This document shows positions 48,031 to 54,934 of a DNA stretch of 64,000 bases, in pieces (the stretch's first letter is position 1; every line of letters begins with the position of its first letter). A program made the translations under genes and the position numbers. The notes below the pieces were generated by a model that saw nothing but the letters and a program-made list of their open reading frames with translations, made no database searches and was not told the DNA's origin. The DNA is from an uncultured Kordiimonas sp. (GTDB lineage Bacteria > Pseudomonadota > Alphaproteobacteria > Sphingomonadales > Kordiimonadaceae): the NCBI GenBank assembly GCA_947492375.1, contig CANLMI010000004.1:124001-188000 (forward strand). Reading direction: 5' to 3'.

Positions 48031-48060
48031 TTGACTTTTAAGGTTGAAACTATCATATGA
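48031..48060 (+). promoter_or_regulatory. Candidate sigma-70 promoter of the suf operon
   Basis: TTGACT at 48031-48036 and CATATG at 48054-48059 are spaced 17 bp. The predicted start of transcription would fall inside the palindrome that follows. Confidence 0.4.
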
Positions 48061-48085
48061 AATCATGACAAAAATGGTCATGATT
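48061..48085 (+). promoter_or_regulatory. Inverted repeat operator upstream of the Rrf2/IscR-like gene
   Basis: Perfect 9-bp arms AATCATGAC (48061-48069) and GTCATGATT (48077-48085) with a 7-base spacer, 52 bp upstream of the regulator ATG and over the predicted transcription start. Size and spacing suit a dimeric winged-helix repressor such as the Rrf2 protein encoded next. The binding protein is inferred. Confidence 0.6.
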
Positions 48086-48137
48086 AAAAAATACGAATAT
48101 ATTAATTGTTTATAGCATCGTTTTATAAGGTTTTTTG

Positions 48138-48593
48138 ATGATTCGATTAACGAATTTGGCAGACTATGCGGTTGTTTTGATGTGCGAAATGGTGCGCATT
48201 GATACAAAAGTTAATGCGCAGAGCTTATCTGATGCTACCAGGGTGCCGAATACAACAGTTGCGAAAATATTGAATTTATTAACGCGGGCTGGTTTGTTGA
48301 CCTCCCACCGCGGCCTTCATGGAGGGTTTGCTCTTGCGGAAGAGCCGAAAAATGTATCGGTGGCGGATATTATTGAAGCAATCGATGGCCCAATTGCTAT
48401 GACACATTGTTCGGAAGAACAAAATTCTGACTGTTCTTTCGATGAGATATGCGTTATGCGGCCGCATTGGCAATCCATAAACGGTGCAGTACGCAGTGCA
48501 CTTGCTGGTGTTAAACTAAATGATCTTGTAGCGGGTCCGCCTGCGGTAAATTTTTTACCTGCTGATCAAAAAGAAAATATCACAGCAAGTTAA
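48138..48593 (+). CDS. Rrf2/IscR-family SUF system regulator
   Basis: 151 residues. The winged helix-turn-helix starts MIRLTNLADYAVVLMCEM and continues SLSDATRVPNTTVAKILNLLTRAGLLTSHRGLHGGFALAE. Three Cys in CSEEQNSDCSFDEIC are the Fe-S ligands of IscR-like sensors. ATG 48138 has AAGG eight bases upstream and is preferred to the TTG one codon earlier. It leads the suf genes and probably represses them when its cluster is loaded. Confidence 0.9.
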   Translation: MIRLTNLADYAVVLMCEMVRIDTKVNAQSLSDATRVPNTTVAKILNLLTRAGLLTSHRGLHGGFALAEEPKNVSVADIIEAIDGPIAMTHCSEEQNSDCSFDEICVMRPHWQSINGAVRSALAGVKLNDLVAGPPAVNFLPADQKENITAS

Positions 48594-48628: not shown

Positions 48629-50098
48629 ATGGCTGGAACCGCTGAAGCCCGGCAGCAAGTTGAAGATGCAACGGGTGAATATAAATACGGCTTTGTAAGC
48701 GATGTCGATATGGACATGGCTCCTAAAGGCCTGAATGAAGATGTTATTCGGTTTATTTCTGCTAAGAAAAATGAGCCGGAATGGCTCTTGGAATGGCGCC
48801 TGAAAGCATATTATCAATGGCTTAAAATGGAAGAACCCGATTGGGCCAAGGTGAATTATCCGAAAATAGATTATAATGATATCTATTATTATGCGGCACC
48901 TAAAACGCAGGATAAACCCAAAAGCCTTGATGAAGTGGATCCTGAACTTATCCGTACTTACGAAAAGTTAGGCATTCCTCTTGAAGAGCAAAAGGTTCTG
49001 GCGGGTGTTGAGGGCGCGCGTAAGGTTGCTGTTGATGCGGTATTTGATTCTGTTTCTGTCGCAACGACATTCCGCGATGAGCTAAAGAAAGCCGGTGTGA
49101 TTTTCATGTCAATTTCTGAGGCTGTTCACGAGTATCCAGAGCTTGTGAAAAAATACCTGGCAACGGTTGTGCCAGTTCGTGATAACTATTTCGCTGCTCT
49201 TAACTGCGCAGTGTTTACAGACGGCACATTTGTTTACATTCCAAAAGGCGTTCGTTGCCCGATGGAGCTTTCTACATATTTCCGTATCAATACTGAAAAT
49301 ACAGGTCAGTTTGAGCGCACTCTTATTATTGCTGATGAAGGTTCTTATGTTTCCTATCTTGAGGGTTGTACGGCACCGATGCGTGATGAAAATCAGCTAC
49401 ATGCGGCTGTTGTTGAACTTGTAGCCCTTGATGACGCTGAGATTAAATACTCTACGGTTCAGAATTGGTATCCGGGCGATAAAGACGGCAAAGGTGGTAT
49501 CTATAATTTTGTTACCAAACGTGCGCTTTGTAAGGGTAAGAACTCCAAAGTATCATGGACGCAGGTGGAAACAGGCTCTGCGGTAACGTGGAAGTATCCT
49601 AGCTGTGTCCTGGCGGGCGAAAATTCGGTTGGTGAGTTTTATTCTGTTGCGGTTACAAACAACTATCAGCAGGCCGATACAGGTACAAAAATGATCCACC
49701 AAGGTGTTGGTTCACGCTCGACTATTATTTCCAAAGGTATTTCTGCGGGCAAATCGGAAAATACCTATAGGGGACTTGTCAAGGTACTCGCTGGTGCCGA
49801 GGGTGTCAGAAATTACACGCAGTGTGATTCGCTTCTGGTTTCAAGCGAATGCGGTGCGCACACGGTGCCTTACATAGAAGTTAAAAACCCATCTGCGCAA
49901 ATCGAGCATGAAGCAACGACATCAAAAATTTCTGATGATCAGTTGTTCTACTGCCGTTCACGTGGATTGGATGAAGAAGAAGCGGTTGCAATGATTGTTA
50001 ACGGTTTCTGTAAAGAAGTAATGCAGCATTTACCGATGGAGTTCGCTGTGGAGGCGCAGAAACTGCTTGGTATCAGCCTTGAAGGTAGCGTTGGATAA
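48629..50098 (+). CDS. sufB: Fe-S cluster assembly scaffold SufB
   Basis: 489 residues. [72 protein letters not shown] and SLEGSVG match SufB. It forms the SufBC2D scaffold in the cytoplasm. An ideal AAGGAG lies before the start. Confidence 0.98.
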
Positions 50099-50105
50099 AC
50101 GGATT

Positions 50106-50849
50106 ATGACAATGTTAAAAATTGAAAATCTACATGTACAAGTTGGTACAACTGAAATTATTAAAGGCTTAAACTTGGAAGTTAAAGCCGGTGAAGTTCA
50201 TGCAATCATGGGGCCGAACGGTGCTGGAAAATCAACACTTGCAAGCACAATCGCTGGCCGTGATGATTATGAAGTAACAAGTGGGTCAGTGACATTTCAA
50301 GGCAAAGACTTACTTGACCTGGAAAGTCACGAGCGTGCAGGTGAAGGCATTTTTCTTGGCTTCCAGTATCCGGTTGAAATCCCCGGTGTTTCAAACTTGA
50401 ATTTTCTAAGAACCGCCCTGAACGGTGTTAGAAAATATAAGGGCGAAGATGAGATGTCTGCTGGTGAATTTATGAAGCTTGTGCGTGCTAAAGCATCTGA
50501 TCTTAAGATGGATGTTGATATGCTAAAACGTTTCGTAAATGTTGGCTTTTCCGGCGGCGAGAAGAAACGGAACGAGATGGTTCAGATGGCTGTTCTTGAT
50601 CCTAAATTTGCTGTTCTTGATGAAACTGATTCTGGTCTCGATATTGACGCTTTAAGAATTGTATCTGAAGGCATTAACGCACAGCGCCGCGACGATACGG
50701 CTATTCTGTTGATTACACACTATCAGCGACTTCTGGATTATGTACAGCCTGATGTGGTGCATGTTTTGGCAGACGGCCAGATTGTAAAATCTGGTGGTAA
50801 AGAACTGGCTCTTGAACTCGAAGAAAAAGGCTATGCTGACGTTGCCTGA
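50106..50849 (+). CDS. sufC: Fe-S cluster assembly ATPase SufC
   Basis: 247 residues. ABC ATPase motifs: GPNGAGKSTLA, FSGGEKKRNEMVQ, AVLDETDSGLDIDALRIV and LLITHYQRLLDY. SufC drives the conformational change of the SufBCD scaffold. The frame extends upstream into sufB (50067); ATG 50106 gives the normal N-terminus MTMLKIENLHV. Confidence 0.97.
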   Translation: MTMLKIENLHVQVGTTEIIKGLNLEVKAGEVHAIMGPNGAGKSTLASTIAGRDDYEVTSGSVTFQGKDLLDLESHERAGEGIFLGFQYPVEIPGVSNLNFLRTALNGVRKYKGEDEMSAGEFMKLVRAKASDLKMDVDMLKRFVNVGFSGGEKKRNEMVQMAVLDPKFAVLDETDSGLDIDALRIVSEGINAQRRDDTAILLITHYQRLLDYVQPDVVHVLADGQIVKSGGKELALELEEKGYADVA

Positions 50850-50881: not shown

Positions 50882-52162
50882 ATGCAAGAAGCATTATTTG
50901 AAAATTATGAAAAGCAAGTTTGGGAATTGGCTGGAATTGTACCGGGTTCTGAGGGTGTTCGCATGCGTGCCTTCAAGCAAGCAGTTAAACTTGGGCTACC
51001 AACTAAGCGTGATGAAGACTGGCGCTATAGCGATGTGAAGTTTTTGAATGATATTTCATTCAGTATTTCAAAAAAACCAAAAGCCATTGAAGTTAAACAA
51101 GCTCCTTTGTCGCAAAATTACGCGGCGCGTCTGGTTTTTGTGAATGGGTATTTTGACGAAGATTTAAGCGATTATGCTGAGCTGTTGGAGGCCGTTAATG
51201 TACGCCCGCTTGCCAATCATTTTACCAGTAACCCTGACCGGGTTGATGAGTTGGTTGAAGGCGGTGACGGCGTTGCTCTTTTAAACACAGCGCTCATGAT
51301 TGGTGGTATGGTTATCTCCGTGCCGGCAAATACTGTGATTGAAAAACCGGTTGAGATTTTAAATTACTCAACAGGTACAGAGCAATCAGCAAGCCATATC
51401 AGGCATGTACTTGAAATTGGCGAGGCTGCATCGCTTAATATTATTGAGCATTTTGTAGGCGATGCTATTTCCGGAAACTACTGGAATAATTCAGTAATTC
51501 AGGCACGTGTATCTGAAGGCGGTAGCCTGACGCACCATAGGGTGCAAGAAGAAGGTGCGCATGCGTTCCATACGGCGAAAGCTCATGTTTCTCTGGATGC
51601 TGGTGCAAATTATAGCTGTAGCAATTTAATGTTAGGTGCCAAAGTTTCACGGTTTGAAGGCCATGTGAAAGTAATGGGTGAAGATGCAAGGGCAACAATT
51701 GATGGTGTTGCACTTGCTGGTAAAGACCAAAGCCATGACATTTTGACAAATGTTCGCCATATGGTGCCAGGGTCAACAAGTGACCAGGTAGTGCGCACAA
51801 TCGCCGATGCTTTTGGCAAAACAGCATTTCAGGGTAAAGTAATTGTCGATAAGGATGCGCAAGAGACTGAAGCTGATCAGTCATTTAAGGCGCTATTGTT
51901 TGACCGCCGCGGTGAAGCAAATGCTAAGCCTGAGCTAGAGATTTTAGCAGACGATGTAAAATGTAGCCACGGCGCCACTGTTGGTGAATTGGATGAAAAG
52001 GCAATTTTTTACCTGACATCCCGCGGCGTTGATCCGGTTACGGCACGACAAATCCTTGTTTCTGCGTTTACAGCAGATGCCTTTGAGCGTGTGGACGATG
52101 AACTTAAAACGGTTATTGCTGAAAAAGTTGCACAGTGGATGACTGAGCGCAATATCGGATAG
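50882..52162 (+). CDS. sufD: Fe-S cluster assembly protein SufD
   Basis: 426 residues. KRDEDWRYSDVKFL near the N-terminus, and C-terminal KCSHGATVGELDEKAIFYLTSRGVD with ARQILVSAFTADAF, are SufD landmarks (the CSHG His). It pairs with SufB in the scaffold. Confidence 0.97.
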   Translation: MQEALFENYEKQVWELAGIVPGSEGVRMRAFKQAVKLGLPTKRDEDWRYSDVKFLNDISFSISKKPKAIEVKQAPLSQNYAARLVFVNGYFDEDLSDYAELLEAVNVRPLANHFTSNPDRVDELVEGGDGVALLNTALMIGGMVISVPANTVIEKPVEILNYSTGTEQSASHIRHVLEIGEAASLNIIEHFVGDAISGNYWNNSVIQARVSEGGSLTHHRVQEEGAHAFHTAKAHVSLDAGANYSCSNLMLGAKVSRFEGHVKVMGEDARATIDGVALAGKDQSHDILTNVRHMVPGSTSDQVVRTIADAFGKTAFQGKVIVDKDAQETEADQSFKALLFDRRGEANAKPELEILADDVKCSHGATVGELDEKAIFYLTSRGVDPVTARQILVSAFTADAFERVDDELKTVIAEKVAQWMTERNIG

Positions 52163-52165
52163 ATA

Positions 52166-53443
52166 GTGAATGGTGTAATGGAAACAGCAGCAAGAAAAAT
52201 TGATCAATCTGCCTCTGGTGCTTCTGGACTTGATGTTGAGTCTATTCGTGCGGATTTCCCAATTCTGTCGCAAGAGGTATATGGCAAGCCCTTTACCTTT
52301 CTTGACTCGGCGGCTAGCGCACAAAAACCCAAGTGTGTAATTGATGCTGAAACAGGCCTTTATGAAGGCTACTATGCCAATATCCATAGAGGTATTTATA
52401 AATTCAGTCAGGATGCGACAGAAGCATATGAAAACACGCGGGAGCGCGTTCGTTCTTTCATAAATGCGAAGTCTACGAAAGAATGTATCTTTGTCCGCGG
52501 AGCTACAGAAGGCATTAATCTCGTTGCTCAAACGTGGGGCCGTCAAAATATTCAAGCCGGTGATGAAATTATCCTGAGTTGGATGGAGCATCATTCGAAT
52601 ATTGTGCCTTGGCAAATGTTGGCAGAAGAAAAAGGTGCAACCATTAAAGTGATACCAGTTCTTGAAGATGGTTCGCTTGATATGGATGTGTATCAAGATT
52701 TATTGTCTGAGAAAACCAAGCTTGTCGCTGTGGCGCATATTTCCAATTCGATCGGAACCATTAATCCAATTGGCCCTATTACTTCAATGGCGCACAGTGC
52801 GGGTGCGCTTGTGCTGATTGATGGGTGCCAGGCTGCTCCTCATATGAAAATTGATGTTCAGGATTTGGATGCTGACTTTTATGCATTTTCTGCTCATAAG
52901 GCATATGGCCCGACAGGTATTGGTGTCATTTATGGCAAAGAGCATTTGTTGGATGCTATGCCACCGTGGCACGGCGGCGGTGATATGATTGCAACTGTCT
53001 CTTTTGATGGTACTACATATAATGATTTGCCATATAAATTTGAAGCAGGGACGCCGAATATTGCTGGCGGTATTGCGATGGCAACAGCGCTCGACTATAT
53101 TGAAAACATAGGTTTTGATAAAATAGCGGCTCATGAAGCTGATATTCTACACTATGCAACGCAGCGCCTGAGTGAGTTCAATAGCTTGCGCATCATTGGC
53201 ACAGCGCCAGAAAAAACAGCTTTGGTCAGCTTTGTTATGAATGATGCCCACCCTCATGATGTTGGTACTATTCTTGATCGCCAAGGTGTCGCGGTGCGTG
53301 TGGGGCATCACTGTGCACAGCCCATAATGGACCGGTTTGATATTTCGGGCACTGTTCGTGCTAGTTTCGGTATTTATAATGACCATAATGATGTTGACCG
53401 TCTTGTTGACGGTTTGAAAAAAGTAATGGATATCTTTGGATGA
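52166..53443 (+). CDS. sufS: Cysteine desulfurase SufS
   Basis: 425 residues from GTG (an ATG lies four codons on). PLP lysine in FSAHKAYGPTGIGV, substrate-activating Cys in VRVGHHCAQPIMDRF, and the HSNIVPWQ segment define group II desulfurases. It supplies persulfide sulfur. SufE, the usual acceptor, is not in the operon. Confidence 0.96.
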   Translation: MNGVMETAARKIDQSASGASGLDVESIRADFPILSQEVYGKPFTFLDSAASAQKPKCVIDAETGLYEGYYANIHRGIYKFSQDATEAYENTRERVRSFINAKSTKECIFVRGATEGINLVAQTWGRQNIQAGDEIILSWMEHHSNIVPWQMLAEEKGATIKVIPVLEDGSLDMDVYQDLLSEKTKLVAVAHISNSIGTINPIGPITSMAHSAGALVLIDGCQAAPHMKIDVQDLDADFYAFSAHKAYGPTGIGVIYGKEHLLDAMPPWHGGGDMIATVSFDGTTYNDLPYKFEAGTPNIAGGIAMATALDYIENIGFDKIAAHEADILHYATQRLSEFNSLRIIGTAPEKTALVSFVMNDAHPHDVGTILDRQGVAVRVGHHCAQPIMDRFDISGTVRASFGIYNDHNDVDRLVDGLKKVMDIFG

Positions 53444-54012
53444 GCGAAGACAATAAAAATCGGGATATTCTTGATACAAGTAACGGTGTATCAAGTGGTA
53501 TGATGGCTGACCATGAAGCGTTTCCTGTGGATAATATGCCGAAAACAGATGTTGAACGCCCTGTTTATGGTCAGATGCAGAATAGTTATTTTTTGAATAA
53601 ATTTCTTGATAAAAAAACAGCAGAACATGAAGCCAACTCTGACGCTGATAGTCAGAGCACTGGTCAATCTGTTGATCAGGCAGGCGGTCAAGATATCGAT
53701 ATTTCTCCAGAAGATTTACAAGCCCGGGTTATTGACGCTTTAAAAGAAATATATGACCCTGAAATACTGGTTAATATCTATGAACTTGGCCTGATTTACG
53801 ATGTTGAGGTTGCAAACGATAAAAGCGTTTTGGTTACTATGACGCTTACAACGCCGCATTGCCCAGTTGCAGAGTCGATGCCCGGTGAAGTGGAACTGCG
53901 TGTTAATTCTGTTGTCGGCACAAACGGTGCCGAAGTTCGCCTTGTTTGGGAGCCACCGTGGGATATGGCCCGCATGTCTGATGAAGCGCGCCTTGAACTT
54001 GGTCTTTTGTAG
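53440..54012 (+). CDS. sufT: SUF-associated DUF59/MIP18-family protein (SufT-like)
   Basis: 190 residues. The last ~100 form the DUF59 domain: VIDALKEIYDPEILVNIYELGLIYDV, LTTPHCPVAESMP with the conserved Cys, and VWEPPWDMARMSDEARLELGLL. The first ~90 residues are polar and low-complexity, an extension of unknown role. MIP18 proteins help deliver or mature Fe-S clusters. The start overlaps sufS (ATGA). Confidence 0.9.
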   Translation: MSEDNKNRDILDTSNGVSSGMMADHEAFPVDNMPKTDVERPVYGQMQNSYFLNKFLDKKTAEHEANSDADSQSTGQSVDQAGGQDIDISPEDLQARVIDALKEIYDPEILVNIYELGLIYDVEVANDKSVLVTMTLTTPHCPVAESMPGEVELRVNSVVGTNGAEVRLVWEPPWDMARMSDEARLELGLL

Positions 54013-54023
54013 GAGTGTATGTA

Positions 54024-54350
54024 ATGAAAGCTATTCAAATTACAGATAAAGCCGCTGAGCATATTAAAGCCTTGCTCGCAAAAGACCCAGAGGCTGTTGG
54101 TATCAAGCTCGGAACAGAAACACATGGTTGCTCGGGCCTTGGGTATACGGTTGATTATGTCAAAGAAGCTTCCAATGATGACGAACTTGTCGAAGATAAA
54201 GGCGTAAAACTGTTCATTGACCGTAAGTCACTTTTGTTTCTTTTGGGTACTCAGATGGACTGGGAAGACACAATGTTTTCAACGGGCTTCAAATTTACCA
54301 ATCCAAATGAAAAAGGCCGCTGCGGTTGTGGTGAAAGCTTCCACGTATAG
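54024..54350 (+). CDS. sufA: A-type Fe-S carrier SufA/IscA
   Basis: 108 residues. The three ligand Cys lie in THGCSGLGY and the terminal GRCGCGESFHV. It carries clusters to apo-proteins. ATG 54024 has AGGAG eight bases upstream; the GTG at 54015 lies within that site and is rejected. A short palindrome (54348-54363) covers its stop codon and that of the opposing gene. Confidence 0.95.
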   Translation: MKAIQITDKAAEHIKALLAKDPEAVGIKLGTETHGCSGLGYTVDYVKEASNDDELVEDKGVKLFIDRKSLLFLLGTQMDWEDTMFSTGFKFTNPNEKGRCGCGESFHV

Positions 54351-54352
54351 CG

Positions 54353-54934
54353 TCAGGACGCTAAGGCGATCAGGTCGTCACGCATTTTAAAATATTTAAA
54401 TGTTTCTGGTTTGACATCATTTCGATTGATTTGGTCGGGTGAAGCTATAATGGATATGCGGGTCTCGACAAATGAGAAGGACCCTGTCGGCATTTCTGTA
54501 TAACCTTTGATATTATTTTGCGAAGGCCAGATACCTCCGATAAGTTGTAGGTTTTTTGTTTCTGACCAAAAGGGCAGAAAGGCACCGGACACCGTATCAA
54601 AGAATGTGCCATTTGCCATAACTGTTGCTTCAAAGGTGACGCCAGCTCTTTTGTTTCTGAGTAAACTGGTTAATAAGTCACGCCATGCCGACAATTGATT
54701 AAGCTCAAGTGGCAAGTTGATTATGTTAGCATTGTTAACGTTATACGATGCCAGGAAACTATCAATGAAGCTACCTGATAGTCGTTTCTGTAACGTGCCA
54801 GACTGCGAGCTTTCTAATACCAACATAAAAGGGAGGAGTTTTTTCAAACACATTGGATTGAAATTCACCCTGTTTGGTATGCTTATCCCCGTACGTAATT
54901 CGTGCCAATAATCTATGTATTTCTTTGCGTCCAT
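54353..54934 (-). CDS. PAS_5-type PAS-domain protein
   Basis: 193 residues. WHELRTGISIPNRVNFNPMCLKKLLPFMLVLE followed by KRLSGSFIDSFLASYN matches the PAS_5 family common in alphaproteobacteria. No output domain is present. Function is unknown; some relatives act in stress or c-di-GMP-linked signalling, but nothing here proves it. Confidence 0.72.
   Translation of the reverse strand: MDAKKYIDYWHELRTGISIPNRVNFNPMCLKKLLPFMLVLESSQSGTLQKRLSGSFIDSFLASYNVNNANIINLPLELNQLSAWRDLLTSLLRNKRAGVTFEATVMANGTFFDTVSGAFLPFWSETKNLQLIGGIWPSQNNIKGYTEMPTGSFSFVETRISIIASPDQINRNDVKPETFKYFKMRDDLIALAS

Follow-up and report, generated by a model that had tools for sequence, protein, structure and literature searches.

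A conserved type-1-like candidate operator at the suf promoter of a Kordiimonas sp. and a small predicted Fe–S regulon

Introduction

The window analysed here, a stretch of 64,000 nucleotides from an uncultured Kordiimonas sp., carries a suf operon for iron–sulphur (Fe–S) cluster assembly that begins with the gene for an Rrf2-type regulator, and a perfect palindrome lies in front of that gene. The question raised by this locus is whether the palindrome is the operator through which the regulator controls its own operon and, if it is, whether the site is peculiar to this regulator or belongs to a kind that is already known. An earlier note made from the DNA letters had proposed an autoregulatory operator for an IscR-like protein, and had added that the regulator may have a recognition sequence of its own. 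Judged by the comparison of sequences, the palindrome is genuine and its conservation extends widely through related bacteria, although it belongs to a known type, and the added result is a small predicted Fe–S regulon. A full-text literature search which covers few subscription journals turned up nothing published about this operator in Kordiimonadaceae, nor about a suf–nfu–grxD regulon of TIGR02944 regulators, and this should be read as weak evidence of absence.

Results and discussion

The regulator and the suf operon

The regulator gene does head a suf operon, as had been claimed, and is followed by genes for SufB, SufC-like, SufD, SufS-like, SufT-like and SufA-like proteins, the last two of which score just below their equivalog cut-offs (Table 1). 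The next gene past sufA (54353–54934 on the minus strand) encodes a PAS_5 domain and has a weak match to MopJ which is below the cut-off.

Table 1. Coordinates of the operator, the predicted promoter elements and the suf operon in the window.
Feature	Position	Strand	Basis
Predicted -35 element, TTGACT	48031..48036	+	Sequence; spacing to operator conserved in 49/57
Predicted -10 element, CATATG (weak TATAAT match)	48054..48059	+	Sequence; CATAT kept in same-genus genome
Candidate operator, type-1-like 25-bp dyad with GAC-N7-GTC core, AATCATGAC-N7-GTCATGATT	48061..48085	.	Sequence, search, palindrome, conservation, matrix
Likely ribosome-binding site, AAGG	48127..48130	+	Sequence
SUF regulator, Rrf2 superfamily, TIGR02944; C91, C99, C105, D9	48138..48593	+	Profile and domain searches, alignment
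sufB	48629..50098	+	Profile search
sufC-like ABC ATPase; start is inner ATG of 50067 frame	50112..50849	+	ORF list, domain search
sufD	50882..52162	+	ORF list, domain search
sufS-like cysteine desulfurase, class V aminotransferase; inner start of 52166 frame	52178..53443	+	ORF list, domain search
sufT-like, TIGR02945; 143.3 bits, just below equivalog cut-off of 143.4	53440..54012	+	Profile search
sufA-like A-type carrier; above TIGR00049 cut-off; 125.7 bits vs equivalog cut-off of 136.2	54027..54350	+	Profile search

The regulator passes the cut-off of TIGR02944 (126.2 vs 110.65 bits, covering positions 1–130 of 130), and its place as the first gene of the suf operon is the one that this family is expected to have. 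It misses the cut-offs for RirA (the equivalog; 59.5 vs 193 bits) and NsrR (39.9 vs 182 bits), and, although IscR-like as the earlier note has it, it also falls below the IscR equivalog cut-off (TIGR02010; 64.2 vs 207.55 bits). Among the 57 orthologs that we compared, the three cluster cysteines expected of an IscR (C91, C99 and C105) as well as D9, K43 and R58 are identical in every one. The fourth cluster ligand of IscR, His107, is not kept and is replaced by Arg108 here (R in 42, K in 10, A in 3, P in 1 and Q in 1 of the 57). The IscR recognition residues S40, Y41, E43 and Q44 correspond to T39, T40, A42 and K43, and the wing Arg59 is kept as R58. Going by these residues, the regulator is not IscR proper, having no His107 and an invariant Asp (D9) that aligns with the cluster-binding D8 of Streptomyces coelicolor NsrR (ScNsrR).

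The cluster cysteines of RirA are numbered C91, C99 and C105, which is the same spacing as in our regulator, but RirA has Asn8 where Asp9 is found here. In ScNsrR, D8 reaches across the dimer to act as a ligand of the [4Fe-4S] cluster (as stated in an excerpt of PMC5411485), and an Asp placed at this position in RirA (N8D) stabilised the cluster and abolished iron sensing (excerpt of PMC10510648), so the regulator may not be a direct sensor of low iron. By analogy, it might instead carry a sturdy [4Fe-4S] cluster and respond not to iron as such but to the supply of clusters, to oxygen or to nitric oxide.

The palindrome and the promoter

Read directly from the DNA, the palindrome is a perfect 9–7–9 arrangement, AATCATGAC-aaaaatg-GTCATGATT, with 9-nt arms that are 100% complementary and 7 nt between them. 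It is the sole match in the 64-kb window when up to three mismatches are allowed, which is well beyond chance as 0.04 matches would be expected, and it is the single exact match among the five places found at the same tolerance in the 3.94-Mb genome. The place with two mismatches (C1:308790) was rejected as an operator on account of its position close to the end of a coding sequence (3' side), and the one inspected of the three places with three mismatches (L004) is inside a long open frame.

The promoter was read by eye as TTGACT, 17 nt and CATATG, with the -10 element matching TATAAT in 3/6 positions, and these positions put the predicted start of transcription near 48066, inside the palindrome, which itself ends 52 nt before the ATG of the regulator gene at 48138. 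A consensus promoter scan of the window did not report this TTGACT/CATATG pair, whose -10 element is weak. In 49/57 orthologous regions, 28–31 nt separate the start of the site from a preceding TTGAC-like element with 4 or 5 matching letters out of 5, which supports the earlier view of an operator-like site at the suf promoter and over the predicted start.

Conservation of the candidate operator among relatives

A search of 59 genomes recovered the regulator ortholog in 57, including the window's own genome, with no match in G056 and a distant Rrf2 protein only in G026. We trained a 25-position matrix on the 300-nt regions that precede the regulator gene in all 57 genomes and scored it leave-one-out. 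A matching 25-bp site was found in 57/57, with scores from 9.2 to 34.6, and in no case did any of 100 dinucleotide shuffles of the region score as high as the site. It should be noted that these 57 are relatives and not independent of one another, and that palindromy itself varies from 4 to 9 of the 9 pairs. The conservation upstream of orthologous regulators on which the earlier note had made its operator depend was therefore present in every genome with the regulator. Positions A8 and T18 occur in all 57 sites, G17 in 54, G7 in 48, C19 in 45 and C9 in 44.

Within the family (Kordiimonadaceae), AAACCTGACTnATTTAGTCATATTT is commoner than the perfect palindrome of the window. The operator differs by 1 base in a genome of the same genus (G001), where it sits in a conserved block with CATAT and the -35 region and where most of the other flanking DNA has diverged. 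Of 80 named records, which partly overlap the 57 genomes, 79 have a best site within 200 nt that scores above the 99th percentile for random sequence, and 10 of the 11 loci that were scored from a set of 30 across the phylum beat all 50 shuffles, with the remaining locus (L107) beaten by 1. Loci from sphingomonads (L253, L257, L278 and others) have arms that shift to CAATCGGA-centred sequences (CAATCGGATCATATCGGTCCGATTG) with the central spacing kept, and this suggests that the outer half-sites drift. Three relatives (L008, L010 and L014) have a second, weaker site of 14–17 bits which lies 81–90 nt from the suf operator on the upstream side, and this recalls the paired sites of E. coli iscR.

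The site at nfu and grxD

The earlier note had suggested a search for the same site upstream of other Fe–S genes, and we found it at nfu and grxD. A pattern search of 29 family genomes gave nfu as the second recurrent site besides suf. In the window's own genome it is located at C3:99418–99442 (L063), where it covers the ribosome-binding site and the two initial codons of the gene, whose product has Nfu_N and NifU domains, and the same register over the Shine–Dalgarno sequence and first two codons is seen in 25/29 family genomes. We then used protein searches to gather the regions upstream of nfu in 58 genomes, which removes the bias of genomes picked by site, and scored them with the suf-only matrix using a threshold of 12 bits. 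Sites of at least 12 bits were present in 40/58 genomes (by family, f1 26/29, f2 3/6, f3 0/1, f4 3/3, f5 0/6, f6 4/6, f7 1/2 and f8 3/5), and none reached 12 bits in 18/58, including all 6/6 genomes of family f5. The site overlaps the start codon in 26 cases and is upstream in 14, often touching the -35 element. Part of the score of the family nfu site comes from the Shine–Dalgarno sequence and start codon that it overlaps; the change in the place of the site between families argues that it is not merely a Shine–Dalgarno sequence plus ATG.

A site of at least 12 bits, again by the suf-only matrix, lies upstream of grxD, between it and the adjoining bolA, in 18/28 family genomes (L182, L188, L191–L220); this count was made on 28 family genomes plus two others, and 28 further grxD genes were left out. 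No grxD site was found in the window's own genus or in 2/2 of the non-family genomes examined. As a control, 238 other ORF starts from the window and these loci gave 13 at 12 bits or more, 12 of which were the nfu or grxD site scored from untagged, overlapping or divergent frames, and with those 12 ORFs set aside 1/226 reached at least 12 bits and the next score was 6.2. An earlier upstream control (39/175 over 12 bits) was discarded because the loci had been chosen for carrying the site. A sequence-only model of 36 suf sites, with 150 of 2701 candidates in the window's own genome scored, placed suf at the top (E 0.058, a training sequence) and nfu second (E 0.69, not in the training set), both with poor E-values, followed by a partial match (E 7.9). 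Applied to 12 other genomes, the model found the suf site in 11, and 8/11 of the non-suf places at E of 1 or less were nfu or grxD. Sites recognised at nfu and grxD by a matrix trained on suf make the predicted regulon seem small and dedicated to Fe–S genes, namely suf, nfu and grxD.

In two genomes, a strong site covers the start of a gene that by eye resembles a globin gene (L179 in G011 and L180 in G009; no Pfam/NCBIfam match), and the nfu site is degraded in both. One of them, G011, also has sites in front of two genes for BLUF-domain proteins, which are blue-light sensors (L184 and L185). We kept the BLUF and globin-looking genes out of the regulon as these are pattern matches in single genomes or pairs only.

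The distribution of the site bears on which protein might bind it. It is unlikely that the binder is a different member of the Rrf2 superfamily, such as an NsrR- or RirA-like protein, or several such proteins together: the genome does encode two more Rrf2 proteins of weak similarity, TGA-N9-TCA, the operator of RirA (known as the IRO box; excerpt of PMC6386902), is likewise compatible with the site, and the globin-like gene in G009 and G011 is preceded by a site, but the site adjoins the TIGR02944 gene in 57/57 genomes and in 79/80 of the partly overlapping named records, a tight neighbourhood that another binder would not explain, and the further targets are Fe–S assembly genes.

The placement of the site bears equally on whether it acts as DNA at all. 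We find it barely credible that the palindrome is a hairpin in the 5'-leader RNA, serving as an attenuator or stability element, rather than a site for a protein. The arms can pair as RNA and the predicted fold forms a hairpin, but many shuffled sequences fold just as well (19/200, z -1.47) and the palindrome region has no Rfam family match. Pairing over 36 suf sites is greater than in nearly all column shuffles (2/500 reach it), although the same is seen for a dyad that binds a protein, and pairs 4–22 and 5–21 are unpaired in 23/36 and 20/36 sites, respectively. At nfu and grxD, the site is at or upstream of the -35 element in several families, and at suf the predicted start is within the left arm, so a hairpin would not be transcribed whole.

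Proposed function of the operator

We consider it highly probable that the palindrome is the operator at which the cluster-loaded TIGR02944 regulator represses its own suf operon, a proposal in which we infer protein binding, repression rather than activation, activity of the holo-form and the type of cluster. A homodimer carrying an Fe–S cluster would bind the 25-bp dyad over the predicted start of transcription and block RNA polymerase, and would thereby repress the suf operon, the gene for the regulator included, while clusters are plentiful; blocking of the polymerase is favoured by the placement of the site over the predicted start. Where clusters are lacking or damaged, repression of suf would be released, completing a negative feedback. 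The same regulator may act at nfu and, in many relatives other than the window's genus, at grxD. The cluster is probably [4Fe-4S], and its ligands would be Cys91, Cys99 and Cys105 together with, in the manner of NsrR, an Asp9 contributed by the partner subunit.

Rrf2 regulators can also activate, and E. coli IscR activates suf (excerpt of PMC9973013), so that the palindrome might be used in the manner of apo-IscR at the E. coli suf promoter. We regard this as very unlikely, as the activation site in E. coli is of type 2, whereas the window site resembles type 1 and its position over the predicted start is suited to repression.

Beyond repression of suf by the TIGR02944 regulator, we raise the tentative possibility that TIGR02944 is a hybrid class, which might combine an NsrR-like [4Fe-4S] cluster with an Asp from the partner subunit, type-1-like recognition without the IscR specificity residues, and a minimal regulon of suf, nfu and grxD, and which might sense cluster supply, oxygen or nitric oxide but not low iron directly. 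It presents a checkable oddity in the Asp found here in place of the Arg of IscR and the Asn of RirA, at a position known to decide the iron lability of Rrf2 clusters. The operator offers a DNA signature for a large and little-studied Rrf2 subfamily, along with a short list of predicted targets (suf, nfu and grxD) in SUF-reliant bacteria, and this allows Fe–S homeostasis circuits to be predicted and tested in Kordiimonadaceae and sphingomonads.

Comparison with known Rrf2 operators

The window site has the same 25-bp length and GAC-N7-GTC core as the IscR type 1 consensus, ATASYYGACTRWWWYAGTCRRSTAT (as given in an excerpt of PMC6599224). A plain count against the whole consensus gives 17/25 letters, a value attained by 12.7% of random 200-nt stretches and not significant taken alone. 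In the 200 nt that precede iscR in E. coli K-12, the suf-only matrix placed the two type-1-like sites first and second with 19.1 and 18.0 bits (the next score was -10.0), and we take these two places to be the footprinted sites A and B. The four published P. aeruginosa type 1 sites scored 13.1, 13.3, 3.5 (tpx) and -19.5 (nfuA) with the suf-trained matrix. By eye, the GC-rich half-sites of the IscR type 2 site (AWARCCCYTSnGTTTGMnGKKKTKWA) are absent from the window site.

The earlier statement that the site differs from E. coli IscR type 1 is correct for the outer half-site bases but not for the length and core, which are the same, and the matrix picks out the E. coli iscR sites; a recognition sequence particular to this regulator is not borne out. 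The core and length shared with type 1, the core shared with RisR, the fit to the RirA operator and the E. coli matrix scores together indicate a variant of a common type-1-like Rrf2 site, akin to those of type 1 and of RisR.

TIGR02944 takes its name, suf_reg_Xantho, from Xanthomonas, and the SUF regulator of Xanthomonas campestris, which is called IscR, belongs to a SUF-only system with a reported type 1 site (excerpt of PMC6599224), a likeness that is drawn by description and not by site sequence. In Myxococcus xanthus, holo-RisR represses isc and suf at GAC-N7-GTC, and as in the window this core is found in A/T-rich DNA and overlaps promoter elements (excerpt of PMC9973013); however, the RisR consensus given there is T(t/g)GAC-N7-GTCC(t/a) rather than TGAC-N7-GTCA, and RisR also controls isc. 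The IRO box of RirA is matched literally by the window site (going by the same excerpt of PMC6386902), but the targets here are Fe–S assembly genes and not those of iron uptake. IscR of P. aeruginosa represses isc and nfuA via type 1 sites (excerpt of PMC6599224), making nfuA a target there as well, and A/T-rich outer arms are a further feature that the type 1 sites of P. aeruginosa and E. coli have in common with ours. Unlike these, the window has AATCAT or AAACCT as the outer half-site in place of ATASYY, and a single site over the predicted start of transcription which is presumably recognised by a different Rrf2 subfamily.
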